From Streptomyces brevispora (GTDB lineage: Bacteria > Actinomycetota > Actinomycetes > Streptomycetales > Streptomycetaceae), in assembly GCF_007829885.1 (NCBI RefSeq), contig NZ_VIWW01000001.1:1922001-1986000 (forward strand): DNA of 64,000 nt. The letters are read 5' to 3'. Shown here one piece after another: positions 5,006 to 20,192 of the stretch; position 1 is the stretch's first letter; each line of letters starts with the position of its first letter. A program made the position numbers and the translations under genes. A model generated the notes under the pieces. The model was not told where the DNA came from. It saw only the letters and a list, made by a program, of their open reading frames with translations, and did no database searches.

Positions 5006-5110
5006 GCAGGGCCTTTCGTCCACGGTCGGCCGCCGCGGGGCGGGCGGCCCTCGCCAGCCATGGTCAAACAGGCTCACCCGCGGCGCAACGGGAATCGCGG
5101 CTTCCGTGTA

Positions 5111-5156
5111 GGGGTGCCGGTAAGAACACTGTCACCAGCCGCAAACGGCACTGATC
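5111..5156 (+). repeat. Left terminal inverted repeat of the Tn3-family transposon
   Basis: Begins ggggtgccggtaagaac and runs inward. Compared with the reverse complement of 17918-17963, mismatches occur only at positions 18, 37 and 41. The resolvase stop codon is at 5155-5157, so the gene abuts the repeat. Confidence 0.93.
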
Positions 5157-5919
5157 AGTCCTCAGACCTGGTGGGTTGGGGCAGTTCCGGCGTGCTCGTC
5201 GCCTCAGCGAGTGCGAGGCGACCGCCCTTCAGCTCGGGCACGTAGTTGTAGATCGTGTTCCTGGAGACGCCGAGGAGCTTTGCGATCGAGGTGACGGTGT
5301 TCTCCGGGCGGGCGAGCAGGTCGCGGGCGTGACGTACCTGTTCCTCCGTCATCGCCGGCGGGCGGCCGAGTCGGGCGCCGCGGGCGCGGGCGGCGTCCAG
5401 GCCCTCGTTGGTGCCCTGCACGATGAGTTCGCGGATGAACTCCGCCAGGGCCGCGAAGACGTGGAAGACCAGGCGCCCGCCGGGCGTGGTCGTGTCGAGC
5501 GCCTCATGCAGCGAGGTGAAGCCGACGCCACGCTTGCGCAGGCCGGACACGATCGCGATGAGGTCCTGGATGGAACGGCCGAGCCGGTCCAGTGACGGGA
5601 CGACGAGGGTGTCGCCCTCGCGCAGGTAGTCGAGGGCCTTCCACAGTTCCTCGCGTTCGGCGTTCTTGCCGGACTTCTTGTCGGAGAAGATCCGGATGCA
5701 GCCCGCTGTGTTGAGTGCGTGCATCTGCCGGTCGAGCAACTGCCCCTTGGTGGACACGCGTGCGTATCCCACGAGGCTGCCGGTCCGTACGGCCGGAACG
5801 GGGGCGAGGAGATCGGCGGTGTCGTCGTCCTGGGGTGGCTGCACCTGCCAGATCGTACAGAAAACGGAGCTCCTCAAGTTCTTGAGCACATCGACTTTCT
5901 GACACCGTTTTATGGGCAT
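5155..5919 (-). CDS. tnpR: Serine recombinase / resolvase of the transposon
   Basis: 254 aa as drawn. The resolvase N-terminal domain begins at LVGYARVSTKGQ (catalytic Ser56), followed by LDRLGRS around residue 110, the long E-helix region AALAEFIRELIVQGTNEGL, and a C-terminal helix-turn-helix TSIAKLLGVSRNTIYNYV. About 48 residues precede the usual family start, so the true start may be an internal GTG (for example the one before GYARVS) and the drawn 5' end may be part of a res site. It resolves cointegrates in Tn3-family transposition. Its position against the left terminal repeat, reading outward, fits the element's tnpR. Confidence 0.88.
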   Translation of the reverse strand: MPIKRCQKVDVLKNLRSSVFCTIWQVQPPQDDDTADLLAPVPAVRTGSLVGYARVSTKGQLLDRQMHALNTAGCIRIFSDKKSGKNAEREELWKALDYLREGDTLVVPSLDRLGRSIQDLIAIVSGLRKRGVGFTSLHEALDTTTPGGRLVFHVFAALAEFIRELIVQGTNEGLDAARARGARLGRPPAMTEEQVRHARDLLARPENTVTSIAKLLGVSRNTIYNYVPELKGGRLALAEATSTPELPQPTRSED

Positions 5920-5990
5920 GATCCGGTGCCGATTCGGCCGCTCATCGCAGCTTACCGATCTTGCTCATCAATCGGTCGATAGATGAGCAG
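5858..5990. other. Candidate res (resolution) region upstream of tnpR
   Basis: The stretch holds several short repeats of the kind seen in res sites: aaaacgg near 5863 opposed to ccgtttt near 5906; the palindrome ctcaagttcttgag at 5873-5886; gctcatc at about 5940 and 5963 opposed to gatgagc at about 5982. It lies between tnpR and the divergent ArsR gene, the standard position for res. Subsite boundaries cannot be fixed by eye. Confidence 0.4.
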
Positions 5991-6013
5991 TGCCACTTTG
6001 CAGGCGAGCTGAA

Positions 6014-6061
6014 CCGCAAAGAGTTCTTCGCGAATATCTCTTTGCGAAGAACTCTTTGCGG
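6014..6061. promoter_or_regulatory. 18-bp inverted-repeat operator before the ArsR/MFS operon
   Basis: Perfect arms ccgcaaagagttcttcgc (6014-6031) and its complement (6044-6061) flank a 12-nt spacer. A further copy of ctctttgcg begins inside the spacer at 6038, so the motif occurs three times. It ends 15 bp before the ATG of the ArsR-type gene; a tctatcgt at 6062-6069 could be a -10 element, which would make the transcript nearly leaderless. Probable binding site of that regulator. Confidence 0.75.
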
Positions 6062-6076
6062 TCTATCGTGTGGCGC

Positions 6077-6742
6077 ATGGCTGATGCAGTGGAGAGGCCG
6101 GATGGCCTGAACGTTGAAAAGGACTCGGTTGTCCTGGATGCCAAGGGGCTGCGTGCCCTGGCGCATCCGGTGCGCGTGCAGTTGGTCGGGCTACTGCGGA
6201 AGTACGGCCCGTCGACGGCCACCCGCCTCGCGGAGCGGCTGGGTGTGAATTCCGGTACGGCCAGCTACCACCTCCGGCAGCTCGGCGCGGCCGGTTTCGT
6301 CGAGGAGGACACCGAACGCGGCAACGCGCGAGAGCGCTGGTGGCGTTCGGTGCACCGGACGACCTGGTTCAACGATCCGGAGCTGTCCGAGCGAGAGCCC
6401 GAGGCCGCGCTGGCCTACCAGCAGTCCGTCGCCGCCATCTACACCCTGCGCACGCGGCAGACCCTGAACGAGCTTCAGACGATGCCCCGCGCATGGCGGA
6501 ACACCTTCGACATGAGCGACTGGGCCTTGCGGCTCACGCCCGAGGAAGCCGCCGCTCTGTACCAGGAGCTGGCGGAAGTCGTCGCGCGCTACCGGCGGGA
6601 CGCGCCGGAGACGGCGGCAAGTGCCCCCGAAGGAGCCGAACGGGTCGCCGTGATCACGCAGATCCTGCCCGAACTGGACGCGCCTGCCGCGTCGTCGCCC
6701 CCTTCCGGCCCTCAGGAAGAGGAAGGAAACCCGACGCCATGA
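6077..6742 (+). CDS. ArsR-type helix-turn-helix repressor paired with an exporter
   Basis: 221 aa. The ATG at 6077 is chosen because the upstream in-frame stretch is the operator. Residues about 25-90 form a winged helix (LRALAHPVRVQLVGLLRKYG, TATRLAERLGVNSGTASYHLRQL, then the wing ERGNARERWWRS), the HTH_20/ArsR class. No CxC metal site is visible, so a metal ligand is unlikely. The rest is helical and Glu/Ala-rich. The stop overlaps the MFS start in ATGA, so the two are translationally coupled and the protein most likely represses the exporter and itself. Confidence 0.85.
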   Translation: MADAVERPDGLNVEKDSVVLDAKGLRALAHPVRVQLVGLLRKYGPSTATRLAERLGVNSGTASYHLRQLGAAGFVEEDTERGNARERWWRSVHRTTWFNDPELSEREPEAALAYQQSVAAIYTLRTRQTLNELQTMPRAWRNTFDMSDWALRLTPEEAAALYQELAEVVARYRRDAPETAASAPEGAERVAVITQILPELDAPAASSPPSGPQEEEGNPTP

Positions 6743-8076
6743 CCGACGACGCCTCGGAGGCCCCCGGCATACCCGGCAAGAGGTCCTTACGGCCGCTGGG
6801 CGGGGTGCTGGCAGCCATGGCCGTGTCGCTGACCGGCACGCGCATCTCCGTTGTGGCACTGCCCTGGTTCGTCCTCGTCACGACCGGCAGCGCCACCCAG
6901 ACCGGACTCGTCGCCTTCTGCGAGATGACTCCCTACGTGGTGGTCAAGGCGTTCACCGGACCACTGGTGGACCGGATCGGCCCGCGGGCCGTTTCCTGGA
7001 CCACCGATCTGGCCAGCGCGACCGCCGCCGCTGCGGTGCCCCTGCTCCACACCCTGGACCTGCTCTCCTTTCCCCTTCTTCTGGTTCTGGTTGCACTTAT
7101 CGGCGCGGCCCGGGGCCCCGGCGACCTAGCCAAGGAGGTGATGGTCCCAGAGGCGGCTGAGCGCGGCCGAGTACCGCTGGAGCGCGCCACCGGTCTGTCC
7201 GGCGTGATCGAGCGGCTCGCCTCTACCGTCGGCCTGGCGATCGGCGGATCCCTGGTGGCGCTGCTCGGCCCCCTGACCGCGCTCGCCGTCAACGCAGGCT
7301 GCTTCGCCCTCGGATCGGTGATCATCAAACTCGCGCTGCCTCGCGGCATGGGGCACACGGCCGAGGAAGCCCCCTCGGCGGCCGGGAAGACGGAACCGGG
7401 CTACTGGCGGCGGTTCGGCGAGGGCTTCACCTTCCTGCGCGGCGAGCCGCTGCTGCTCACCGTCATCGTCATGGTGGGGATCACCAACCTGCTGGACGCG
7501 GCGTTCGTCGCGGTGCTCGTGCCCGTCTGGGCCAGGGATTCCGGCAACGGGCCGGCCGCGATCGGCCTGATGGGCAGCGTAATGGGAGCCGCGGGAGTCG
7601 GCGGGAGCCTGATCGCCGCGGTGGTCGCGCACCGGCTGCGGCGGCGGATGGTGGTTCTCACCGGGTTCCTGCTGGCCGGGGCACCTAGGTTCCTGATCCT
7701 CGCCTTCGATGCACCGCTGGGGGCAGTCCTGGCCGTCTTCGCGGTCACCGGGTTCGGCGCCGGCTTCGTCAACCCAGTGCTGGGGGCCGTCCTCGTCGAA
7801 CGGGTGCCGCGCCGGATGCTGGGCCGGGTCAACGCGCTCGGCGACTCGCTGGCCTGGGCAGGTATCCCACTCGGTGGGCTGCTCGCCGGGGCGGCGGTGA
7901 CCACTGCCGGACTCGTGCCGGTGCTGCTCACCTGCGGGGCCGCGTACTTCCTCACCACGAATCTGGCTGGACTGCGGCCGGAATGGCGCGAGATAGACCG
8001 AACGCGTGGGCGGGCCGTCATGAAGCAGCATGGCAAGGAAGACGCCTCACCAGACAGCGCGAACGCAGCGACCTGA
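6739..8076 (+). CDS. MFS efflux transporter, macrolide-exporter type
   Basis: 445 aa with about 12 hydrophobic segments between residues 18 and 420 and a charged C-terminal tail. The motif-A-like loop GPLVDRIGPRAVSW follows helix 2. The overall pattern (SLTGTRISVVALPWFVLVTTGSATQTG at the N-terminus) is that of MFS_3/MefA-like drug exporters. It overlaps the regulator by 4 bp. Codon 17 is TTA (6787-6789), so its translation should need the bldA tRNA; that is unusual for a simple resistance gene on a transposon and points to a Streptomyces history. Substrate unknown. Confidence 0.85.
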   Translation: MTDDASEAPGIPGKRSLRPLGGVLAAMAVSLTGTRISVVALPWFVLVTTGSATQTGLVAFCEMTPYVVVKAFTGPLVDRIGPRAVSWTTDLASATAAAAVPLLHTLDLLSFPLLLVLVALIGAARGPGDLAKEVMVPEAAERGRVPLERATGLSGVIERLASTVGLAIGGSLVALLGPLTALAVNAGCFALGSVIIKLALPRGMGHTAEEAPSAAGKTEPGYWRRFGEGFTFLRGEPLLLTVIVMVGITNLLDAAFVAVLVPVWARDSGNGPAAIGLMGSVMGAAGVGGSLIAAVVAHRLRRRMVVLTGFLLAGAPRFLILAFDAPLGAVLAVFAVTGFGAGFVNPVLGAVLVERVPRRMLGRVNALGDSLAWAGIPLGGLLAGAAVTTAGLVPVLLTCGAAYFLTTNLAGLRPEWREIDRTRGRAVMKQHGKEDASPDSANAAT

Positions 8077-8233
8077 CGCTTACGCGAGGGGAGGCGGACC
8101 AGGCTGGCACTCGGGACTGGTGAGCTCGCGTATTCAACTGTCGTGTGTTGGCCTGTCCGGCCCTGGGATTGCTACTGATCGTGACGTCTGCCAGCGGGCT
8201 ACGAATGTCAGAGGCATCCGGTTGGATGAGCAC

Positions 8234-8902
8234 GTGACTGTCTATGACGTAGCCCGCCAGCTCCCCACCATCGCCGACCTGCGAGACCTGTGCCGCTCGC
8301 TTGCGATGCTCGATGCGATCCTGAGCCCGGACTGGGAAAGCCGGTACTACTCGTTCAATGCCACTTGGGCTGAAGGCGAGGAGATGGCTTCGATGCGCAA
8401 CGGGTCGGGAGACGAGTACTCCATCGTGTTCTCGGCGGCTGGGGTCTATGTTCGCGGCTTTGGTCACGAAGCACCAATGAGCCCGTATGGACACGATGGC
8501 GAGCCCTGGCCGGGAGTGATCGACGATGTTCCCGAGGTCTTTAAGTCCTTCGTCGAGGAGCCGGCGTTCACCGACGAGGGCGGCGTGCCCGTCGTGACCG
8601 CCTGCTTGTGGCGGGAGGCGACGGACGATCAGTGGCACCACGGCACGATCGACTTCCCCTCGGACCGTGCCGACCCTGACGGGGCCACGGGGCTGTTCGA
8701 GCTTCTGGTCGACCGCTCTCCCGAGGCGTTCCAGCGCTTCGCAGAGGACTATTACGAGGTCCCTGTGGACTTGAGGACGGTGAGTGACGTGTATGCCTTG
8801 CGGCCGCTGAACCAGGAACTCGTGTCGTCGTTGAACGTAGAGGTCACCCTGGCGGACCTGGCCCAAGACATCTCCGAAATCGGCTATCCGCAGGCTCACT
8901 GA
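8234..8902 (+). CDS. Hypothetical protein, transposon cargo
   Basis: 222 aa from the GTG at 8234 (the frame is open upstream to 8030, but a normal start MTVYDVARQLP and a weak GGATGAG precede this codon). Acidic and soluble, without signal peptide or membrane segments. Well-formed sequence blocks such as SRYYSFNATWAEGEEMASM, GHEAPMSPY and FAEDYYEVPVDL indicate a genuine conserved family that I have seen annotated only as hypothetical. It follows the MFS gene by about 150 bp in the same direction. No function is proposed. Confidence 0.7.
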   Translation: MTVYDVARQLPTIADLRDLCRSLAMLDAILSPDWESRYYSFNATWAEGEEMASMRNGSGDEYSIVFSAAGVYVRGFGHEAPMSPYGHDGEPWPGVIDDVPEVFKSFVEEPAFTDEGGVPVVTACLWREATDDQWHHGTIDFPSDRADPDGATGLFELLVDRSPEAFQRFAEDYYEVPVDLRTVSDVYALRPLNQELVSSLNVEVTLADLAQDISEIGYPQAH

Positions 8903-8916
8903 GAGCCGATCCGTCT

Positions 8917-8944
8917 GCCCACCGGCACGTTTTTGCTGGTGGGC
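8917..8944. terminator. Bidirectional terminator hairpin
   Basis: Arms gcccaccggca (8917-8927) and tgctggtgggc (8934-8944) pair over 11 bp with one G-U, loop rich in T. It lies between the stop codons of two convergent genes. Confidence 0.7.
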
Positions 8945-8952
8945 CTTCGTAT

Positions 8953-10492
8953 TCAGAGGTCGCCGGTTCCCCGAGGAGCCCAGCCCGCTGGCGATCTTGC
9001 GTGATCCCCAGGGGCGTATCGGCTCCATGTCCCGCCGGTCTCGTTGCGGAGCCGGGTGGTGGTCTTGTCGTGGTAGCCGAGAGCGTCCGCGACGACGGGT
9101 GCGGGGAGTTCGAGGAGTTGCTGCCGGATGGCGGCGCCGCGGGCGGCGGCGATCGGGATTCCGACCTTGTTCAGGAGCGCGGACAGGTGGTTGGGGCCGA
9201 GCGGCTGGCCGGTCCGGCGGCCAGGAAAGAGCCAGCGGGATGCCGGGTTGGTGGCGGTGTTCATGTTGCCGCGGTTCGCGATGTGCTCCAGCAGCAGGGT
9301 GGCGACCGGTGCGGGAACGGGCGAGGGCGGCTCGCCGAGCCGCAGCAGCACAGCGTCGCCGTCGCAGATGACGTCGTCGATGGTGACCCGGACGACGCGG
9401 CTCAGCGGCTGCGCGTAGAGGAGAACGATGACTCCGGCGACGCGGAGTCGCATCGGTATCTCCGTGTCGGTCAGCAGTCGCCCAAGGGCGGCGAGGCGTT
9501 CGTCTTCGCTCAGTGCGGCCCGGCGGGAGACTTTCATCGCGGGGATGGCCAGGGAACGCCGGCAGTGCCGGCCCTGCACGGCCCAGTTGAGGAAGGCTCT
9601 CAGGCAGGTGCGGGCGTGCTCGGTGTTCTCGGCGAACCAGGCGTCGATGTCGATCTGGCCGCATGACGCGAGGGTGCTGTTGCGCTCGCTGAGCCATTGC
9701 AGGAAGGCGGTCGCGTACTTGGTCTGTTCGCCGGCGAAGCGACGGATGCTGGGTGTGATGTGGTTCCGCTCGGCGCGGGCCCGCAGCCGGGGGAGGACGT
9801 GCCAGGTCGCGAAGAGCCTGATCGTCTTGGCGTGCTCGGGATCGGCGATGTCGGACAGGTGGCCGGGAAGCCAGCGCTGGAAGGAACAGAGGTGCTTGTC
9901 GACCGGGCAGGACTCCGCAGGCCATGAGAAGTTCTTCCAGGTGAGAGGCGGCCCGCCAGGGCTGGAGCTCGTGGAAGGCGTCGTGGGTCAGCGGGATCTC
10001 GCCGAGGCCGAGTCGTTGAAGCAGCTGCGAGGCGTTTCCCAGCTGCCCGCGGCGCATGTCCAGCCAGGCCAGTCCGCTCCTGGGCTTGTCCATCGTCACC
10101 AGCAGGTCGAACAGCGGGACCAGCGCGGGACGGACGCGACCCGTGCCGTCGTCGAGGAGCGCGGTGAGGCGGTCGGTGAACGTGCAGCGTTCACACAGCC
10201 GTCCGCCCAGGAGCTTGCCCTCGAAGCCGCAGCGTGAGCAGTCGAAGGTCTGGGAGAAGCCAGCGCAGGTGGTGCAGATCGCGGCCCCATCCTCCGGGCA
10301 GAGCCCAGGAAGGGCTCGTTCCTGGCCGCATCCCGGGCAGGTGCCCCGCATCCTGACAGCTCGGTCCGAACAGGTCCGGCAGACGTATCCGTCCGGCCAG
10401 GTGCCGGCCTTGTGCCTGCGGCGGCCGCAGCGGCAGCAGTCCGCCATGAACCAGCGTTCGTACTGTTCGTCGGTGGCGTAGGGGCGGGTCAT
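8953..10492 (-). pseudogene. Zinc-finger tyrosine recombinase, frameshifted
   Basis: Translation starts at ATG 10492 with a cysteine-rich N-terminus (ADCCRCGRR, CRTCSDRA, CPGCG, CTTC, CSRCG, CERC), then a helical part up to MACGVLPG. Near 9900 the frame shifts by one base: the sequence continues as VDKHLCSFQRWLPGHL... in another frame to the stop at 8953, covering the SAM-like core domain and the C-terminal integrase domain (ALGYHDKTTTRLR...W). Uninterrupted it would be roughly 510 aa. Either a pseudogene or a sequencing error in a C/G run. It is the third gene of an ATGA-coupled operon with the XRE protein and the upstream recombinase. Confidence 0.8.
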
Positions 10493-10824
10493 GCGTCGGG
10501 CAGGATGCGGGCGGCGCGGGGGCGGAGCTTGGCGACGTTCGCGGGCGGGGTGGGCAGGTCACCGGTGGCGGCTTTGCGGACGCCGACGTTCTCGGCGGTG
10601 GTGGCCACCAGGTCGGCCGGGGTGCAGGAGAGGATGTCGCAGAGCGCGGCCATGACCTGCAACGACAGGCGTTCGGGGGTGCCGGAGACCAGGCGGTGGA
10701 CCTGGGAGGTGGACAGGTCGATGCCGCGTTCGCGCAGCAGCGGCACCAGTTCGGTGGCCGTGAAGATCTGGTGCTGGGCCATGACCTCGCGCAGCCGCCA
10801 GGTGTATCCGACCTTGCGTTTCAT
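10489..10824 (-). CDS. XRE/Cro-type helix-turn-helix protein between two recombinases
   Basis: 111 aa. Residues about 8-70 form a lambda-repressor-like HTH: WRLREVMAQHQIFTATELVPLLRERGIDLSTSQVHRLVSG, then LSLQVMAALCDILSC, the hallmark of small Streptomyces XRE proteins. Its ATG overlaps the stop of the upstream recombinase (ATGA at 10821-10824) and its stop overlaps the start of the downstream recombinase (10489-10492). Tight coupling suggests it is a structural or regulatory partner of the recombination module rather than a free-standing regulator. Confidence 0.85.
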   Translation of the reverse strand: MKRKVGYTWRLREVMAQHQIFTATELVPLLRERGIDLSTSQVHRLVSGTPERLSLQVMAALCDILSCTPADLVATTAENVGVRKAATGDLPTPPANVAKLRPRAARILPDA

Positions 10825-11972
10825 GCTTGCCTCCCGGTCTGGGTCTGGAGGGCGGCGGCGATGGTGGAGTCCAGATGCCGCCGCAGGGTGCGGGTGCGGA
10901 AGTCCGAGGACACGCAGGTGTAGAGCGAGGTGGTGCTGGCGTGCTCGTGACCGACCTGCTCTTGAACGAAGCGCGGGTCCCAGCCGTCCTCGATCAGGTG
11001 GGTGACGTAGGACCTGCGAAAGGAGTGAAAGTCAAGTCCGTCGTCCAGGCCGAGGGCCTTGCGGTAAGCGATGAAGCGGGAGTTGAGCCGCTGGCAGCCG
11101 ATCCGCAGCCCCCGCTCGGAGGGCCAGGCCGCCGGGTTGTTGTCGGTGCCGAACAGCGGGCGGACCTCGGTGAACCACTCGTCCAGGACGTCCGGGGTCC
11201 AGTCGAAGACGGTCAGCACCCCGCGGCGTTTGGGCGGCGATCCCTTCTTGGCTTTGCCGAATCGGACCTGGCACCGGCCGTACTCGCCGAACTCGCCGCC
11301 GTGCGGGTTGCGGCCGAAGTCGGCGGCGTCGAGCATCCGCGTCTCGTTGCGGCGCGTCCCGAAGGCGTAGGCGGTCTTGAACAGCGTCGCGTCGCGGAAG
11401 GCGGGCAGCCAGCCCTTGCGGCCGAAGGCCCGGATGCGAGCGACCTCGTCGTCGCAGTGCGCGAAGAAGGCGTGCAGCTCGGCCTTGGTGAACGCGCGCT
11501 TCTTGGCGTCCGCTTCGTTGTCCTGGACGTGCACCGCGGTGTTCCACTCGTGCACCACCTGCACCGGGTGGGTCCCGAACCGCTCTTCGCAGGTGGCCGT
11601 CCACTCGTAGAGCGGATCCGTGATGAAGTGGCAGAACGCCCGCACGGCCTCCGAGTACGAGCGGATCGTGGAGCGCTTCAGGTCCCGCAGCGAACGCAGA
11701 TCACCGAGCCACTCGTCGACCATCGCCGGCGTCCAGAGCCAGGGGTAGGTGTTCACGTAGGCAGCAAACGCCTTGACCGTGTTCTCCCGACCCTCGACGG
11801 TCGTTCGGGCCAGATTCCGGGCGAGCTGCTGGTTGGCGAACCCTGTCAACATCGCCGCGAAGACCTGTTCCTCCGGCCGCAGCAAAGCGACCCCGTCGAC
11901 CAGGTGCAGTCTCGCCACCCCCGGTACCGAACCGTTAAACCCCACCGATTCACCACTCTCCGTGACTCGCAC
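10821..11972 (-). CDS. Tyrosine recombinase / integrase
   Basis: About 383 aa from a GTG at 11972. The frame is open to 12113, but the extra residues run into the divergent tnpA start; none of the candidate starts has a strong ribosome binding site, so the 5' end is uncertain. N-terminal SAM-like DNA-binding domain (TVEGRENTVKAFAAYVNTYPWLW...), then the catalytic domain with all expected residues: Arg in AFGTRRNETRML, HSFRR (His and second Arg), GHEHAS (His), and the tyrosine of SLYTCVS. It looks intact. First gene of a three-gene operon; probably mobilises a smaller element that once inserted next to the tnpA fragment at 12112. Confidence 0.8.
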   Translation of the reverse strand: MRVTESGESVGFNGSVPGVARLHLVDGVALLRPEEQVFAAMLTGFANQQLARNLARTTVEGRENTVKAFAAYVNTYPWLWTPAMVDEWLGDLRSLRDLKRSTIRSYSEAVRAFCHFITDPLYEWTATCEERFGTHPVQVVHEWNTAVHVQDNEADAKKRAFTKAELHAFFAHCDDEVARIRAFGRKGWLPAFRDATLFKTAYAFGTRRNETRMLDAADFGRNPHGGEFGEYGRCQVRFGKAKKGSPPKRRGVLTVFDWTPDVLDEWFTEVRPLFGTDNNPAAWPSERGLRIGCQRLNSRFIAYRKALGLDDGLDFHSFRRSYVTHLIEDGWDPRFVQEQVGHEHASTTSLYTCVSSDFRTRTLRRHLDSTIAAALQTQTGRQA

Positions 11973-12111
11973 CAGATGCGAGAAAACCGCATCCGATGCA
12001 ATTGGCGGCGGTCGGAGTATCCGAACGGAAATTAGCGGTAGCGGGACGATCTTGATTCCGGTTCGGTGACGTGCCCGTTTTGCCTGGCCAGCGAGCTCTA
12101 CGTTCCTCGGC

Positions 12112-13380
12112 ATGCCTGTTGAGTACCTGTCTGCTGAGCGAGAGGCCCGCTACGGGCGGTTCACCACAGAGCCGTCGCCCGGCGAGCTGGAACAGTTCTT
12201 CCGCCTGGACACCAGAGCCCTGGAGTTGGCGCGGGCGAAGCGTCGTCCAGCCACAAGGTTGGGGTGGGCGGTGCAGTGGGGCACCGTGCGGATGCTCGGC
12301 ACCTTTCTGACCGAAGACCCCACGGCGGCCCCGGCCTCCGTAGTGCGGTTCGTCGCCGAGCAGCTCGCCCTCGATGACAAGCACTTCGCCGGGTACGGAG
12401 CGCGCTCGCAGACGGCCTACGAGCACGCGTGGGAGATCCGGGACGCCCGGCTACCGGGACTTCACCGAAGGCGAAGAGGAGCTGCGGGAGTTCCTGGCGG
12501 CGCGGGTGTGGTCGTCACTGGAGGGACCGAGGGCTCTGTTCGACCGGGCGGTGGTGTGGCTGGTGAACAACCGAGTGCTGCTGCCCGGGGTCACGACGCT
12601 GGCCCGCATGGTGGCCGCAGTCCGCCAGGAGGAGAACGACCGCCTGCACGCCGCGCTGTACGAGGCGGTCCCGTACGACCTGCGCACCGAGATGGTCCGG
12701 CTGCTGGAAGTGCCTGAGAAGAAGCGGGTGTCGGAGCTGGAACGGCTGCGGCTGGGACCGATGCGGGTGTCTGGCAGGGCCATGGAACTCGCCCTGGACC
12801 GCGCCCGGGAGGTGCGGGGCCTGGGCGCCGGCGCGGTGGACGCCGGACGGGTCCCGGCCGCGCGGATGACCGGGCTGGCCCGGTACGGGCTGACCTCGAA
12901 GGCGCCGACGCTCAAGCGGCTGGAGGTGACCCGGCAGACCGCGACGCTGCTGGCGACCGTGCGGCATCTGGAGACCGCGACGGTGGACGACGCGCTCGAT
13001 CTGCTGCACACCCTGATGGCCACGAAACTGCTGGCGAAGGCCGAGCGTCGGCGGGACGTGTTCGCCAGGGACGGCGACCGCTGGGGCGACCCCCGGGTGA
13101 AGCTGCTGGCCGGGGAGAAGTGGACGGCCGCCGAGCCGAAGGTGCTCACCGCACTAGGCCTGGAGAGCGAGCCGGCCGGACACCTCGCCGAACTCGCCTC
13201 CGCCCTGCATGCCGCGTACGTCCAGGCCGCCGCCGGGTTGCCGGGCAACACGGCGCTGGAGGTGGTGGCCGGGAGGCTGAAGCTGGCCAAGCTCGGCAAG
13301 GCGGAGGAGCCTGAACTCATGCCGCCGTTCCGCCAGCTGGTCAACGGCATGCTGCCGAAGGTCGACTTCCCCGCCCGTTG
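12112..13380 (+). pseudogene. Second Tn3-family transposase, N-terminal fragment with frameshift
   Basis: The first about 113 codons (MPVEYLSAEREARYGRF...AYEHAWEIRDA) are a Tn3-transposase N-terminal domain of the DUF4158 class. Near 12450 the frame shifts and the protein continues as GYRDFTEGEEELREFLAARVW...LPKVDFPAR in the +1 frame. The catalytic half (DDE core and C-terminus) is missing; unrelated sequence follows from about 13380. Sequence and orientation differ from the tnpA at 16565-17870, so it represents a separate, older Tn3-type element nested in or captured by the present one. Confidence 0.82.
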
Positions 13381-13438
13381 CGTGACCCCCACGCCCACGA
13401 CGAGTCAGACGACGGCGAGGCCGAGTAACGGAGGTGCC

Positions 13439-14686
13439 TTACGAGGCCTGATCACTTCCACGAGTGTCAGGGTGGTGGCCGTGGTCATCCGCATTCGCTG
13501 CACGGGTCCTGGCCGGGCTTTCCTCGAACTTGTACAGCGCCAGTAGGTGGCGGGCCAGGGCGAGTGCGGCAAGCAGCGCAACGAGCACGCACACGCCCCA
13601 CCAGCCAGCTTGGCTCCAGACGCGTACGCCGAGCCAGGAACCTGCGCTGCCGCCCAGGTAGGCGCAGGTCATGTAGGCGGTGTTGAGCCTGCTGCGGGCG
13701 TCGACGCGCAGGGCGTAGACGCGGACTTGATTGGCGACCATGCCGGACTGCATCGCGGCGTCGAGGAGCAGCGTGCCGAGTGTCAGGGCGGCCAGGCCCA
13801 GCGCGCCGCCCCGGGCACCAATGGTGAGGATCGCGGCAGAAACGAGGACACCAAGCATGCAGGCCAGGTTCACTGGATCTGGGCCGTAGCGGTCCACTAG
13901 ACGGCCGGCGAGCGGGGTACAGACCATGGTCGCTGCGCCGACCAGGGCGATCATTCCTACCGCCTGGGCACCCAGCCCGTAGGCCGGTCCGGCGAGCAGG
14001 AGCGCCAGGCAGGTCCAGACCGCAGAGAACCCCGCGAAGACGGTTGCCTGGTAGAAGCACGAGCGGCGCAGGTCTGGCTCGGTGCGCAGCAGGCGCAGCG
14101 GCTCGGCCAGGAGCGCTGTGTACGGCTGGCGGGAGGACGGGGTTGTGGTCGGCACCGCGAACACCAAGACGGTGGCGAGAAGCAGAGCCAGGACCGCGGC
14201 GACCAGGTAGGGGGCCCGCCAGCCCAGCCACTCACCGAGCGTGCCGCTGAAGGTCCGGGCCAGCAGCATGCCGCCGGTCGATCCGCTCAGCAGGGTGCCG
14301 ATCGCCGCTCCCTGGCGGTCGGCGGCCACGAGACCAGCCGCCAGGGGGCCGACGATCTGCGCGCCCACGGTGGTCAGGCCGACAAGCGTGCTGGCGGCAA
14401 TGAGGGCTGGCAGAGCCGGTGCGCAACCTGCTGCGAGCAGTGCCAGACCGGTCAGGGCGAAGAGGACGACGAGGAACGAGCGGTGCGGGAGCCGGTCGCC
14501 AAGCGGCACCAGCAAGACCATCCCGGCCGTGTAGCCAATCTGTGTGGCAGTCACCACCGCAGCGGCCGAATCGGGCGACACATGTAGCCCGGCGGCGACC
14601 AGCGGACCGATGGCCTGCGGAAAGTAGATGTTGCCCACTGCCACGGCGCACGTGACAGCCAGGATCAGGACCATCCGGCGGCTCAT
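13439..14686 (-). CDS. MFS transporter, cargo exporter
   Basis: 415 aa, about 12 transmembrane segments. Typical MFS signatures: PLGDRLPHRSFLV after helix 2 (motif A), GRLVDRYGPDPVNL in the second half. N-terminus SRRMVLILAVTCAVAVGNIYFPQAI matches the YnfM/Bcr-like drug-proton antiporter subgroup. The hydrophilic tail is His/Asp-rich. The start lies 3 bp after the stop of the SDR gene, so both are one operon reading away from the ArsR-like gene. Export of a product handled by the reductase is a reasonable guess, not shown. Confidence 0.85.
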   Translation of the reverse strand: MSRRMVLILAVTCAVAVGNIYFPQAIGPLVAAGLHVSPDSAAAVVTATQIGYTAGMVLLVPLGDRLPHRSFLVVLFALTGLALLAAGCAPALPALIAASTLVGLTTVGAQIVGPLAAGLVAADRQGAAIGTLLSGSTGGMLLARTFSGTLGEWLGWRAPYLVAAVLALLLATVLVFAVPTTTPSSRQPYTALLAEPLRLLRTEPDLRRSCFYQATVFAGFSAVWTCLALLLAGPAYGLGAQAVGMIALVGAATMVCTPLAGRLVDRYGPDPVNLACMLGVLVSAAILTIGARGGALGLAALTLGTLLLDAAMQSGMVANQVRVYALRVDARSRLNTAYMTCAYLGGSAGSWLGVRVWSQAGWWGVCVLVALLAALALARHLLALYKFEESPARTRAANADDHGHHPDTRGSDQAS

Positions 14687-14689
14687 CCT

Positions 14690-15457
14690 TCAGTCCACCG
14701 GCCCGCCCGCGACGTAGATGACCTGGCCGGAGACGAACCCCGCCCCGGGACTTACGAGGAAGGAGGCGGTATGTGCGATGTCGTCAGGCAGACCCACCCT
14801 GCCGACCGGGATGGACTGCTCCGCCCCGTGCCGGAACTCCTCGAAGCTCAGGCCGAGCCGCCGGGCGGAGGCCCTGGTCATGTCGCTCACGACGAATCCC
14901 GGCGCGATGGCGTTCGCGGTCACGCCATGCGGGCCGAGCTGGAGAGCGAGGGATTTGGTGAATCCGATCAAACCCGCCTTCGCGCTGGCGTAATCCACAC
15001 GGCCGGCATCACCAACCGCGGAGATGCTCGACATGTTGACGATGCGTCCCCAACCGGCCGCCACCATATGCGGGCAGACGGCCCGGGTGACGAAGAACGG
15101 GCCGCTGAGGTTGATCCCCAAGACCGTGTCCCACTGCTGCGTGGTCATGTCCACAAGGCCGGCACGGGGTCCGATGCCGGCGTTGTTGACCAGCACCGTC
15201 GGCGGTCCGAAAGCGGCGGCGATCCGGGCGATGGCCGCAGTGACCGCGGCCTCGTCGGCGACATCAGCGGCGACGGCCAGCGCTGCGCCGCCGACACTTG
15301 TGATGGCCTCCACGGTATCGGCGCATTCCGCCTCGTCCAGATCGATCACGCCGACCGCCAAGCCGTCGCCCGCCAGACGCCTGGCAACAGCGGCGCCAAT
15401 ACCGCGGGCAGCACCGGTGACAACCGCCGTCCGCTGCACATGAGTTGTAGGTGTCAT
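14690..15457 (-). CDS. Short-chain dehydrogenase/reductase
   Basis: 255 aa from ATG 15457 (the longer frame to 15493 adds residues foreign to the family). Classical SDR: cofactor motif TGAARGIG near residue 14, VNNAGIG near 88, catalytic Ser in NMSSIS and YASAK (Tyr and Lys), PG motif AIAPGFV, and C-terminal FVSGQVIYVAGG. Resembles FabG-like 3-oxoacyl reductases, which also include many secondary-metabolite and detoxification enzymes; substrate cannot be read from the sequence. No strong ribosome binding site. Co-transcribed with the MFS exporter and divergent from the ArsR-like regulator, 56 bp away. Confidence 0.87.
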   Translation of the reverse strand: MTPTTHVQRTAVVTGAARGIGAAVARRLAGDGLAVGVIDLDEAECADTVEAITSVGGAALAVAADVADEAAVTAAIARIAAAFGPPTVLVNNAGIGPRAGLVDMTTQQWDTVLGINLSGPFFVTRAVCPHMVAAGWGRIVNMSSISAVGDAGRVDYASAKAGLIGFTKSLALQLGPHGVTANAIAPGFVVSDMTRASARRLGLSFEEFRHGAEQSIPVGRVGLPDDIAHTASFLVSPGAGFVSGQVIYVAGGPVD

Positions 15458-15513
15458 GGGAGGAAGTCCACGGCATCGACGTTGCGCCGCCAATCGATGT
15501 AGCGTATGGCTTA

Positions 15514-16521
15514 ATGATCAGCTTTGTTCTCGGCGTCGAGGACCTCGCGGACACCCGCTTCGCCCTCTCACCCCTGCACGAAACCCTGTTCAGCCTGCGG
15601 GTGCTGCAGGACCCGGGCCTGTCCGCGCTGCATCTGCCCTGGCGCAGGTCCGTACTCGGCAGACTCGGTACGCTCGACACCGGCCTACTGATGTCCCTGG
15701 TCGCCCAGAGGCGTACCCTCCCCGACTTCCTGACCCCGAATCCCGCGAGCTTCGCGCCGGCCTTCGAAGAAGAACTCTCCGTCGTCCGCCAGGCGTCCTG
15801 CGCTCGGGTCCGCCACGACCTGCTGCTCGCGCACGCACCCGACCCTGTTCCCGAAGCGCTCCGCGACGCCACCGCCGCCGAAGACGCACCTGTCGCCAGG
15901 CTCCGCGACGCCATCTGCGATCTCCTGCGGCAGTACTGGGAGGTGGCCATCGAGCCGGTGTGGCCGCAGATGCGGCTGGTGCTGGAAGCCGACATGACCT
16001 ACCGCGCCCGCCAGCTCGCCCTGGGAGGCGCCCGAATGCTGTTCGCCGACATGCACCCGAACCTGCGCTGGCAAGGCGGAGAGCTGTACATCCACAAGAT
16101 GATCAGCAGGCACCGGGTTGCGGCATCTGGCCGGGGGCTACTGCTCCTGCCGTCCGTGTTCGCACACAAGCCCGCGCCCCCCGTGAGCCCGGACGAGCCG
16201 CCGAGCCTCGTCTATCCCAGCCGGGGAGTAGCCACGCTGTGGGGCTCGGAGATGCCGACCGTCGACACAACCGCCCTGGTGTCTCTGCTCGGTTCATCCC
16301 GAGCGAGACTGCTCAGCCTCCTGGAAGAGCCACTGGCCACCGTAGAGCTCGCCCGCCGTCTCAGGGTCACCCCAAGCGCTGTCTCCCAACACCTGCGTGT
16401 CCTGCACTCCACAGGACTGGTCACCCGGACACGTGACGGACGGCATGTTCTGTACCGGAGAAGCGCACTCGGCGACGGACTCACGACCACCGCAACCAGA
16501 CCACGAACTCACGACAGCTGA
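15514..16521 (+). CDS. ArsR-family regulator with long N-terminal domain
   Basis: 335 aa from ATG 15514. The N-terminal about 235 residues resemble the DUF5937 domain that precedes a winged helix in many Streptomyces regulators (MISFVLGVEDLADTRFALSPLHETLFSLRVL). The C-terminal ArsR helix-turn-helix is clear: SSRARLLSLLEEP, TVELARRLRVTPSAVSQHL, then RTRDGRHVLYRRS. Divergent from the SDR-MFS operon across a 56-bp gap, so it very likely controls that operon and itself. Its stop is only 43 bp from the 3' end of the tnpA remnant, i.e. this cargo lies against the deleted transposase. Confidence 0.85.
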   Translation: MISFVLGVEDLADTRFALSPLHETLFSLRVLQDPGLSALHLPWRRSVLGRLGTLDTGLLMSLVAQRRTLPDFLTPNPASFAPAFEEELSVVRQASCARVRHDLLLAHAPDPVPEALRDATAAEDAPVARLRDAICDLLRQYWEVAIEPVWPQMRLVLEADMTYRARQLALGGARMLFADMHPNLRWQGGELYIHKMISRHRVAASGRGLLLLPSVFAHKPAPPVSPDEPPSLVYPSRGVATLWGSEMPTVDTTALVSLLGSSRARLLSLLEEPLATVELARRLRVTPSAVSQHLRVLHSTGLVTRTRDGRHVLYRRSALGDGLTTTATRPRTHDS

Positions 16522-16564
16522 GGTTCAGCACTCCGCCTCCGCCCAACCCCGCCTGGCCAGGCGA

Positions 16565-17870
16565 CTACCCACTCATGTCCATGTCGAGGTTGACCTCCCC
16601 GTACGGACGCACGTGCGACCAGAACAGCGGGGTCAGGCCGCGCCGGTCGGCGGGCGTGAGAAGCTCCGGTTCGCCGAGGATGTCCTGAAGCATCAAAGTG
16701 TTCACGTAGACCAGGGCCGATTGCAGAATCCGCAGGCACAGCACGAACATCTCCTGCTCGTCGCGCCGGTTCGAGGCGATCTCCCCGCCCTTGCCGTAGG
16801 CGATCACAGAGTTGGCGCCGTTGGAGGACTCCATGACGTTCAGGCCCTCCTCGATCTCCCGCTGGAGGTCCCGTAGCCGCAGGTACCGGGCCACAAAGAT
16901 GGTCTTCCGCGCGCGGCCGACCTCCAGCATCGCCGCATAGGTGGGGTGGGAGGCGTTGCGGGTGAAGCGCCGCAGGATCGCCTCGGTGGACGCGGTGCGG
17001 GTCCGGATCGCGGTGGCGTACTTGAATCATCTGGTCGTACTGCTGGGCGATGAGTTCCCAGCGGATCGGGCGGGTCAGCGCCGGGGTCAGCTGCGGGTAG
17101 GCGTCCGGCTCGAACAGATCCCGTGGCAGACCGATCGCCCGCACCGCCAGGAGCTTGTCGATCTCGGTGAGCATCGTCTCCAGGCTCACGTTGCCCGGCG
17201 CTTCCTTGACCTTCGCCAGCACCGGCGGCGCGTCCTCGCCCTCCGTACCACCGCCCTCGGGTCCGGCGTCGTCCTGGTCGGCGCCGGCCACCAGAGCCGC
17301 GATCCGCTCGATGCTCTCCACGGTCAGCCGGGAGGAGATCAGGGCCGTCAGCGACTCCTCGGCCGCCCGCAGGGCAGCCGCCACGATCCGATCGCACCGG
17401 CCCGGCGTGGGCGGCTCGATGCTCTCCTCGCGACAGCGGGCCAACAGTTCCACCCGGACCTGCTCGGGCCTGCGTTCCTTGCGCGCGACGTGCTCGGCCA
17501 GATACGTCGTCAGCTTCTCCGCGTCCGCGACGCTGCACTCACGGAAGCCGAGGTGCTCCCGGATCTGCGCGCGGTGGTACTCGACCGTGCGGCCCGTCCA
17601 GTCGTAGGACTCCAGCTCCGAGGCAGGAACCCGCACCTGACGGGCGACGAACTCCACGGCCTCACCGGGAGGCTCTGTCCGGTTCCGGGGAAACCGGCCG
17701 TACTGCGTATAGAACTTCAGCAGCACGGCGAAGCCCAGTCGCGTCGCACCGCGCTTGCCGGACACGAGCACTTGCTCGTCCTTCAACAGCGTCCAGTGCT
17801 CGACGAGTTCATCCAGGTCCAACGGAGTGCGGGCCACGATCGCCGGTCGTCCTCGCAGAGCTTCACCCAC
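16565..17870 (-). pseudogene. tnpA: tnpA of the transposon, catalytic core deleted and frameshifted
   Basis: Starts at GTG 17870, 47 bp inside the right terminal repeat. Residues 1 to about 270 are a Tn3-family N-terminus (LDLDELVEHWTLLKDEQVLV...ELESYDWTGRTVEYHRAQIREHLGF). Near 17060 the sequence jumps directly to the family's C-terminal block RWELIAQQYDQM, then a one-base frameshift near 17030, then KYATAIRTRTASTEAILRRFTR...NGANSVIAYGKGGEIASN...FWSHVRPYGEVNLDMDMSG and TAG. A full TnpA is close to 1000 aa; only about 430 remain, so several hundred residues holding the DDE catalytic centre are gone. It cannot be active. Confidence 0.88.
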
Positions 17871-17917
17871 CGCAGCCGTACGGCCCCGGACTCACCCACA
17901 CGGGCGACGCCCCGCAA

Positions 17918-17963
17918 GATCACTGCTGTTTGCGGCTGGTGACAGCGTTCTTACCGGCACCCC
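17918..17963 (-). repeat. Right terminal inverted repeat of the Tn3-family transposon
   Basis: Ends ...gttcttaccggcacccc at 17963 and is immediately followed by the duplicated gtgta at 17964-17968. Matches the left end at 43 of 46 positions. Confidence 0.93.
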
Positions 17964-18405
17964 GTGTACGTCCGCGTACGTCCGCGTGCTTCCGCCTGAG
18001 AGCCCCGGATCTCGAACCCCGAACCTCGGATCTCGGGGCTCGGGGCTCGGGGCTCGGGGCTCGGGAGTCGAGCCCCCGGAGTCGAGAACCGGGAACGGCG
18101 GTCCGGTCACTCGTTCGTGGGTACGCGGACGGGGCCCGGCCCGGCGCTCGAACCTCGGGATTCAAGGGTCGGGCTTCGAGAGCCGAGATTCGAGCGGTCT
18201 CTTTAACCCGGCCACAGACAAGGGGGGTTGGGGAAACCCCACCCCCCTCCCCTACCCGTCACGGCCAGCAAGTATGACTAATCGTGATCGACTTGCGGCG
18301 CCCCGTGACGGCTGCTTACGGTGCCCACAATGAATCGACCCCGACGCGGTGTAAGAAGCACCAGGCCGGGGTCTCACCCCAAGATCGAAAGATGAAGGCG
18401 ATCTC
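17964..18405. other. Non-coding stretch with tandem heptamers and a hairpin
   Basis: After the target duplication come imperfect cgtacgtccg repeats (the original insertion target), then five tandem copies of ctcggg(g/a) at 18032-18066 within a longer run of related ctcgg/tcgag words to about 18200. A strong hairpin (aggggggt..gggg with complement) lies at about 18221-18249. The final 150 bp upstream of the gene at 18406 are less GC-rich and probably hold its promoter. No coding potential seen. Confidence 0.6.
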
Positions 18406-19521
18406 GTGGCTATCGAGCACCCTAGTCCCGCCCTCCGCGCCCCCGCATCCCCGCGCCCGCACCCCACGGCCAAGCCCGGATACGGCAAGCGGTCCACCCC
18501 GGATCAACGCCCACCCTCGAACGGCGACTTCGCCCTCCTCCCCGAGCGGGAGCGGTACGTCGCCGGGTACGTCGACCGGCTCGCCGACGGTGCCGCGATG
18601 GACATCAAGTCGCTGGCCAAGAACCTTCCACTGTTCGGGCAGATGGCCGTCGGCAGCGCGCTCAGGGCCCTCGGCGTGGCCGGTCACCTGCGGCACGTAC
18701 GGTGCCGGGTCGGCGAAGACGGCACGTCGCGCTGGGTCACGTACACCTTCTGGTCCCGTTCCGCCCGCGACAACGAGTGGTGGGGCGCGTTCCTCGGCGC
18801 CCACGAGGTGGCGGTGGTAGCGGCCGAGGTGGCCGTGGGGGTGGTACCGGTGCCGGTGCCGGTGCCGGTGCCGGTATCAGTAGCCGTGGAGGTGGCGCCT
18901 GTCGCCGCTGCCACTCCTGGGGCGGCAGCCCCGGGGCCGGACCCGGCGCCCGAGCCCACTCCCGCGCCCGCTCCCGCTCCCGCTCCCGCTCCCGTCGTAC
19001 CGGAGCAGCGGAACCCGGACCCCGCCCCGGCCCCGGACCCGGACCCCGCCCCTCGCGGTCACTCCCCCGCGTACCTCGTCCTGGCCCGACTCGGCCGCAG
19101 CGAACCCCGGTTGGCCCTCTCCGCCGCCGACTGCACCGCGCTCGAAGACCTGGCCGGTGCCTGGTTCGCGCGTGGCGTGAACGCCGAATACCTCACCCAC
19201 GCCCTCACCTCGGGGCTCCCCGAGCAGGTCGGCTCCCCCGTAGGGCTCGTCCGGCGGCGGCTGCGCGACAAGATCCCGCCCCAGGTGCCCGCCGCCCCCA
19301 CTCCGGGCGCACCTGGCGCACCGTCCGCACCGGACGCCACTCGCCGCCTCATGGTGGAGTGCACCGAATGCCGTTCGCCCGGCCGCCCCGAAGCGCTCAC
19401 CGACGGTCTCTGCCGCCCCTGCCGCGCCCCGGCAGCAGCCGCCGCCCCCGCCGAGCCGCCCATCGAGCGCGACATTCAGGCGCACGTCGGCCGTCTGCGC
19501 GAACTGCTCAAGGCGCCCTGA
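18406..19521 (+). CDS. Helix-turn-helix protein with Pro/Ala linker and zinc ribbon
   Basis: 371 aa, GTG start with GAAGG about 8 nt upstream. Residues about 45-115 form a winged-helix-like domain (LLPERERYVAGYVDRLADG...DIKSLAKNLPLFGQMAVGSALRAL...VTYTFWSR) that Streptomyces genomes often label MarR-like. Residues about 145-220 are a low-complexity Val/Pro/Ala/Asp linker encoded by (gtgccg)n and (cccgct)n repeats. The C-terminal third carries a conserved helical part and a CTEC...CRPC zinc knuckle. Likely DNA-binding; target unknown. First gene to the right of the transposon. Confidence 0.75.
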   Translation: MAIEHPSPALRAPASPRPHPTAKPGYGKRSTPDQRPPSNGDFALLPERERYVAGYVDRLADGAAMDIKSLAKNLPLFGQMAVGSALRALGVAGHLRHVRCRVGEDGTSRWVTYTFWSRSARDNEWWGAFLGAHEVAVVAAEVAVGVVPVPVPVPVPVSVAVEVAPVAAATPGAAAPGPDPAPEPTPAPAPAPAPAPVVPEQRNPDPAPAPDPDPAPRGHSPAYLVLARLGRSEPRLALSAADCTALEDLAGAWFARGVNAEYLTHALTSGLPEQVGSPVGLVRRRLRDKIPPQVPAAPTPGAPGAPSAPDATRRLMVECTECRSPGRPEALTDGLCRPCRAPAAAAAPAEPPIERDIQAHVGRLRELLKAP

Positions 19522-19568
19522 CATCCGGAGGCAGCACATGCCGTCCACGTGCCGTCCCTGTACGGGCC

Positions 19569-20192
19569 CTACAGTCTGCGCGCTGCGATCTTCTCCCCGT
19601 GGGATCCACGGACTACGAGGTTCTGGGCCTTGCCGTCGCCGTCGTCCCCGTCCCACCACTCGACGAACTCGGCCGACATCTCTTCGGCATCGAACCTGTC
19701 GGCGGCGCTGGGTCGATAATCCGTCGTCAGCTCGACGTCGAAGTCGGAGTCGGACGTCCCGAGCTCCACAACGGTGATCGCGCTGACGTGTCTCACGAGT
19801 GCCGGGTTGTCCACTCCGAGCCATTCCCGGAATTCGGGAAGGAGACCCTTCTCCTTCGTCCTCACGGTCACCCGGCCGGCGGGCGGGTGCCTGGGGCGCT
19901 CGCTCACACCGTCCAGGCACCCCACCACCCAGGCCCCGCGATCCGTCTCGGCCACCCGCCCCGCGTCGAGCGCCCGGCGCGTACAACCACCCCATACGAC
20001 CTCGGCGATCGACGCCCCCTTTCCGACCGACTTCCTTACCGCGCGGCCCTTTTCGTACCCGTCCGCGTAGGCGTCCCGCGCTGTCTGCCTCTCGTCCCTG
20101 ACCGGTGCCCACTCGGTGCAGGACGACACGGTCGCGGCCCCGAGCACGACGCAGAGCAGGGCGAGACACCACAAGCGATGCGCTGGATTCAC
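19569..20192 (-). CDS. Putative lipoprotein
   Basis: 207 aa from GTG 20192, which gives a compact lipoprotein signal ending in the lipobox VSSC; an ATG at 20213 is an alternative. After the cysteine comes a soluble domain of unrecognised family with a WGGC...GC pair and an acidic, Trp-rich C-terminal part (FVEWWDGDDGDG). Probably anchored to the outer face of the membrane. Same strand as the lipoprotein at 20351 and may share a transcript with it. Confidence 0.72.
   Translation of the reverse strand: MNPAHRLWCLALLCVVLGAATVSSCTEWAPVRDERQTARDAYADGYEKGRAVRKSVGKGASIAEVVWGGCTRRALDAGRVAETDRGAWVVGCLDGVSERPRHPPAGRVTVRTKEKGLLPEFREWLGVDNPALVRHVSAITVVELGTSDSDFDVELTTDYRPSAADRFDAEEMSAEFVEWWDGDDGDGKAQNLVVRGSHGEKIAARRL

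Follow-up and report, generated by a model that had tools for sequence, protein, structure and literature searches.

A Tn3-family transposon of Streptomyces brevispora with a broken tnpA and a decayed recombinase module that likely exchanges gene cassettes

In a 64,000-nucleotide stretch of the Streptomyces brevispora genome (the window), we find a 12,853-bp Tn3-family transposon that has a broken tnpA and harbors a decayed recombinase module, one that likely entered site-specifically and likely exchanges cassettes. We put the probability of this reading at roughly 0.7. The module (the "XER module") lies in an insert within the transposon and combines a tyrosine recombinase (INT), an XRE regulator, and a ~510-aa XerD-like gene (Table 1). 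A conserved recombination-like site, ACTGGTGGGCTC-GCGTATTC-AACTGTCGC, lies 3' of the ~510-aa gene. In the order of events that we propose, the native transposon would have landed first and would later have gained the module and a second exporter block.

Table 1. Features of the transposon and of the DNA inserted in it (positions in the window).
Feature	Position	Strand	Basis or remark
Target duplication GTGTA, left copy	5106..5110	no strand	Read in sequence
Left terminal inverted repeat, Tn3-family element	5111..5156	+	
Serine resolvase	5155..5844	-	PF00239, E 2.9e-41; start by analogy with annotated L134 homologue, open frame to 5919
50-bp palindrome, candidate operator upstream of regulator gene	6013..6062		22-nt arms, 95%
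ArsR-type regulator, native cargo	6078..6742	+	97% DNA identity to L134
MFS exporter, native cargo	6739..8076	+	Profile match, L134 comparison
Outer recombination-like site of XER module	8106..8144	+	10-bp left extension and 29-bp core, 27/29
Window cassette gene, 222-aa protein	8234..8902	+	Same cassette in L232, L253, L274
Inner recombination-like site	8935..8963	+	23/29 (weak); 66 bp from aligned XerD-like gene end
XerD-like gene, ~510-aa family, frameshifted near 9904	9001..10492	-	Homologue alignment; predicted fold of intact homologue
XRE/Cro-type regulator	10489..10824	-	PF13443
Tyrosine recombinase INT	10821..11945	-	PF00589, invariant residues; start by alignment, open frame to 12113
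Palindromic repeats around GCATCCGATGCA, candidate binding sites upstream of INT	11963..12004		
Second Tn3 transposase (tnpA2), different from native, N-terminal remnant, frameshifted	12112..13372	+	PF13700
Second MFS exporter, in insert	13439..14686	-	
Short-chain dehydrogenase, in insert	14690..15493	-	
ArsR-type regulator, in insert	15451..16521	+	
Native tnpA, C-terminal piece	16576..17111	-	L134 comparison
Native tnpA, N-terminal piece	17112..17870	-	PF13700; L134 comparison
Right terminal inverted repeat	17918..17963	-	
Target duplication GTGTA, right copy	17964..17968	no strand	Read in sequence

The element has the real ends of a Tn3-family transposon, as the original prediction held. 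Its inverted repeats are identical at 43 of 46 positions (93%; 36 of 38 in the outer 38 bp), both start with GGGG, and GTGTA stands on either side. The resolvase open reading frame stops at 5155, within the left repeat, and was thus correctly described as touching that end. Inverted GGGG ends of ~38 bp, a 5-bp target duplication, and a resolvase module (PF00239) are all features of a Tn3-family derivative. A search for other copies of the ends was also proposed at the outset: a 17-mer of the end matches at least 119 stretches of the genome collection, and this end family is therefore widespread. In the 7.54-Mb host genome the 36-bp end pattern (up to 3 mismatches) occurs in two places, both of them these ends (reversed control, 0). 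We surveyed 122 loci of up to 18 kb for end pairs (119 found via the end 17-mer, plus the window, L134, and L136) and identified 13 inverted pairs. The 5-bp flanks are identical in four pairs (the window, L027, L050, and L062), one base apart in two (L136 and L097), and non-matching in seven; a nearly full TnpA (at least 940 of 1,007 residues) lies inside five of the 13. The same ends also bound short elements (0.65-2.9 kb) that contain hardly any tnpA or none (L027, L050, L022, L015, and L089), and L027 (2.9 kb) and L050 (1.9 kb) have exact 5-bp duplications without a complete tnpA.

The native gene set can be read from L134, an element of 6,197 bp on a plasmid of Streptomyces sp. NBC_01213, which shares these ends but has 5-bp flanks that differ from each other. 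It encodes a resolvase, an ArsR-type regulator, an MFS exporter, and a TnpA of 1,007 codons; judging by this element, the native form of the window transposon is ~6.2 kb. DNA identity between the two is 97.1% over 5108-8105, 95.4% in the C-terminal part of tnpA (16576-17112), and 93.8% in its N-terminal part (17111-17963). Relative to L134, the window tnpA has lost 1,678 bp at 17111/17112 as well as 127 bp of its 3' end, its remaining pieces lie in different frames, and past the 3' end of the MFS gene 8,470 bp stand in place of 127 bp. The intact DDE TnpA that marks an autonomous Tn3-family transposon is therefore absent from the element, and elsewhere in the host genome no match to the Tn3 catalytic domain spans it in full. 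Because tnpA is broken the element is non-autonomous, and it would now depend on TnpA from elsewhere for movement.

With its tnpA gutted and no further copy of its ends in the genome at up to 3 mismatches, the element is best described as a non-autonomous Tn3-family derivative, and what looked like a large cargo is DNA nested within it. The two regulator/exporter modules and the recombinase operon of the original prediction do exist, but not all of them are native cargo of a single large transposon: the recombinase operon, the tnpA2 remnant, and the second exporter module belong to the 8.47-kb insert. There is an open reading frame 47 bp inside the right repeat, where tnpA had been placed, yet it is the N-terminal piece of the gutted gene and not an intact one. 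The unusual part of the element is the recombinase module inside it, and the 12.9-kb size is the product of nesting and decay. As a member of its family the outer transposon is ordinary and decayed, a caution that an element may have intact ends and a target duplication without being intact itself.

Known Tn3-family elements offer several parallels. Tn4556 is likewise a Tn3-family transposon of Streptomyces, described as ~6.6 kb long with 38-bp ends, TnpA and TnpR, a methyltransferase and a prenyl transferase as cargo, and a TnpR reported with a PF00589 motif (PMC6403206); compared with that description, the window element has a serine resolvase and an ArsR/MFS pair instead. TIMEs and other non-autonomous Tn3 derivatives, as characterized in PMC4133298 and PMC13367494, resemble the window element in having Tn3 ends without a working tnpA. 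They differ from it, as far as those accounts go, in that the window element is 12.9 kb long and contains a nested recombinase module, although small same-end relatives (0.65-2.9 kb) exist.

Among 392 genomes searched, one relative (G190) has both flanks of the transposon (left, 92%; right, 89%) in colinear order with just 37 bp between them, which makes the locus empty in this genome. The proposal that relatives would have an empty site is thus borne out as to the locus, but the single GTGTA expected there could not be read because the 37-bp junction stretch, which corresponds to 98 bp of window DNA, does not align. In three further relatives (L281-L283) the left flank matches and the right flank does not, and an earlier search of 61 genomes, including the host's own, found no clear orthologous site. 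The right flank (window 18000-19600) is one of a family of sequences, with further copies, ~70-78% identical, in the host genome, G029, and G019.

Homology with the host transposon stops at 8105 and the 10-bp left extension of the outer recombination-like site begins at 8106; the site is therefore the edge of the insert. Inside it, the genes for the XerD-like protein, the XRE regulator, and INT form a trio in one operon, within an inserted element with variable cargo, as in XER modules, although the XerD-like member is frameshifted. An apparent 824-aa protein was rejected as a real gene, since it results from reading past the frameshift in the ~510-aa gene into a different frame. The XerD-like protein matched no Pfam or NCBIfam family above cut-off, its PDB sequence matches included no recombinase, and it has no profile match to INT. 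The predicted fold of a homologue (mean pLDDT 78.9, pTM 0.43) matched recombinases, and the module is thus predicted to have two tyrosine recombinases, the XerD-like one assigned from its predicted fold. No INT relatives were found in viral contigs, and matches in the phage collection amount to 10 records, all below 60% identity. PADLOC, run on eight proteins, returned no defence-system match; tblastx against regions of the host's own genome gave GC-rich noise and was left out of the results.

The recombination-like site (up to 3 mismatches) is present in 57 of 295 Streptomyces genomes, at 81 sites, while the reversed pattern was found 0 times. Starting from these 81 sites we fetched 40 regions, favoring clustered and closer matches; L240 was removed as a duplicate of L135, and the orientation, cassette, shared-DNA, and multi-site counts were confined to sites matching at 23 or more of 29 positions. 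There are 68 such sites in the fetched regions and plasmid loci. The 3' end of a XerD-like gene lies within 6 kb of 41 of them, on the opposite strand in all 41 cases and downstream of the site in 37; the other 27 sites have no XerD-like 3' end inside 6 kb. The orientation rule also holds for sites fetched by the site alone, half of which (25 of 50) are near a XerD-like 3' end, all 25 in the same orientation. Where a locus has several sites they are direct repeats (14 of 14 loci) spaced 478-4,180 bp apart, in short arrays with a maximum of 3 sites per locus. The two window sites (cores at 8116 and 8935) are also in direct orientation, with one gene between them.

Across genomes, the site was found in 20 of the 26 that have a close XerD-like gene (at least 60% identity, among the matches listed) and was absent from the other 6, compared with a presence in 37 of 269 remaining genomes. 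These 37 of the 57 site-bearing genomes, which have no XerD-like match of at least 60% identity among the matches listed, contain either orphan sites or more diverged XerD-like genes. In window 8905-8950, before the inner site, GCCCACCGGCA and TGCTGGTGGGC may pair as a hairpin that takes in the left half-site.

DNA shared to the right of the site points to cassettes. In all 147 in-register pairs from different loci the shared DNA reaches at most 30 bp outside the site; these pairs are non-independent, and because a pair was admitted only with a start at or before +45, the finding is confined to the outer limit (-30). Two more pairs share the left side instead and stop at the right edge of the site. 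Inner sites keep the right half while the left half varies, and outer sites keep the left half, which is followed by cassette-specific sequence. Fifteen sites represent the empty platform, and eight groups, totalling 23 sites, are each found in at least two loci whose DNA immediately upstream is not shared. One such unit, of 675 bp, is 97% identical in two genomes (G217 and G277) in which its neighbors differ. Bounded units are mostly 0.4-1.4 kb long with a single likely gene, and the same unit may stand beside different neighbors; some are larger or have two genes (3.9 kb in L276; L196).

Likely cassette genes, picked by length and codon composition, encode NUDIX proteins, methyltransferases, an aminoglycoside-2''-adenylyltransferase-like protein, ArsR with cation efflux, RusA, pentapeptide repeats, DUF6228, and several proteins without assigned function. 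The window carries one cassette (8116-8935), the 222-aa protein of which gave no family match. With cassettes bounded by sites in a direct array, as in integrons, the likely mechanism is integron-like cassette exchange, to the extent that comparison of sequences can indicate it. INT and the XerD-like protein would join circular cassettes to the platform site by a crossover within the GCGTATTC spacer. After such a crossover, the flank would keep the left half-site and the module the right one. The XRE protein may act on the GCATCNGATGC palindromes upstream of INT.

Related modules in Paenarthrobacter occur as whole units. Plasmid pA of Paenarthrobacter ureafaciens AT (NZ_CP094490) has tandem modules; the stretch fetched comprises a full unit plus 3,917 bp of a second. 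The record pD of the same strain (NZ_CP094493) is a circle of 4,712 bp, 100% identical to the full unit of pA, and may represent excision as a circle or else an artefact of assembling the tandem copies. In strain YJN-5, module copies of 4,744 bp that are 99.9% identical lie between unrelated flanks on two plasmids.

These whole units, in tandem and alone, would also suit a different reading, in which cargo elements accrete at the end site of the module, an ordinary integrative element, or remnants stay behind between att sites (CIME-like accretion). The short arrays and the larger or two-gene units agree with it, as do the Arthrobacter XER modules with 4 or 14 cargo genes in the description of PMC6305408. 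Such accretion accounts less well for bounded units that mostly have one likely gene in 0.4-1.4 kb, or for the same unit found beside different neighbors, and we consider it somewhat unlikely. It is far less probable still that the 29-bp site is the terminal repeat of a second Tn3 element, that of tnpA2, and not a tyrosine-recombinase site. The sequence GGGGGTTGAT stands directly before the site in many copies, and of the 19 loci in which INT is nearly full, 7 have tnpA2 next to the trio, but an inverted copy (at least 22 of 29) was absent from the tnpA2 side in four loci (L199, L261, L264, and L269), the 14 multi-site loci have direct and no inverted repeats, and half-sites are exchanged. Given that tnpA2 has no inverted partner in these four loci, we rejected this interpretation.

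For the outer element, one could also suppose that the 12.9-kb composite moved whole, with TnpA provided in trans, and that the whole is a working transposon. Intact ends and the target duplication are what such movement would leave, and L027 and L050 have exact duplications despite lacking a complete tnpA; however, the ends form a single pair in the host genome and the other Tn3 catalytic-domain matches there cover only a partial domain, making movement of the whole quite improbable.

Cassette-capturing integrons have been described mainly in proteobacteria, and the attC sites of their cassettes take a folded form. To our knowledge, integrons are rare in actinobacteria. The module resembles an integron in its recombinase platform, its one attachment site, its small cassettes in direct array, and its orphan sites. 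It differs in its two recombinase-fold proteins and XRE regulator, in its short arrays, and in cassette sites that resemble the platform site and not a folded attC; INT scores 38 bits against the integron-integrase model TIGR02249, for which the cut-off is 265. Thus, on these comparisons, the module is integron-like in layout yet no integron by its integrase. RIT elements and Tn554, both named in PMC8138268, are, like the module, multi-gene mobile elements with tyrosine recombinases; RIT elements have three recombinases, whereas the middle gene of the module encodes an XRE regulator (PF13443).

The closest described counterparts are XER modules of Arthrobacter plasmids, which share with the window module the trio of XerD, XRE regulator, and XerC and a variable cargo, as presented in PMC6305408. 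To that presentation we add, for Streptomyces, the site, the cassette boundaries, and the link to Tn3. Among the titles listed in searches of the open-licence PMC literature, none other than PMC6305408 described the trio or a cassette system of Streptomyces or other actinobacteria. Further additions are the orientation rule, the distribution in Streptomyces, and a likely circular form.

The odds are about even that Streptomyces and other actinobacteria have an integron-like system of their own, with a two-recombinase platform, an XRE switch, a ~30-bp site, and circular single-gene cassettes, often on plasmids and beside Tn3 transposases, and with orphan cassettes in genomes that have no platform. 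If so, the plasmids, transposons, and chromosomes of Streptomyces could exchange genes by a new route, with cassettes that include an aminoglycoside-adenylyltransferase-like gene, NUDIX proteins, methyltransferases, and metal efflux. For the uncharacterised XER modules, this would supply a site, a rule of orientation, and a reaction open to testing.

Some further observations concern XER genes elsewhere. A 563-aa XerD-like homologue (P0045) bears the XRE domain PF13443 and is possibly a fusion of two genes of the trio. The host genome has a second XER copy at the end of contig C1 (L191), near which 30-bp repeats in both orientations, CRISPR-like in appearance, occupy positions 10355-10506 of that locus.
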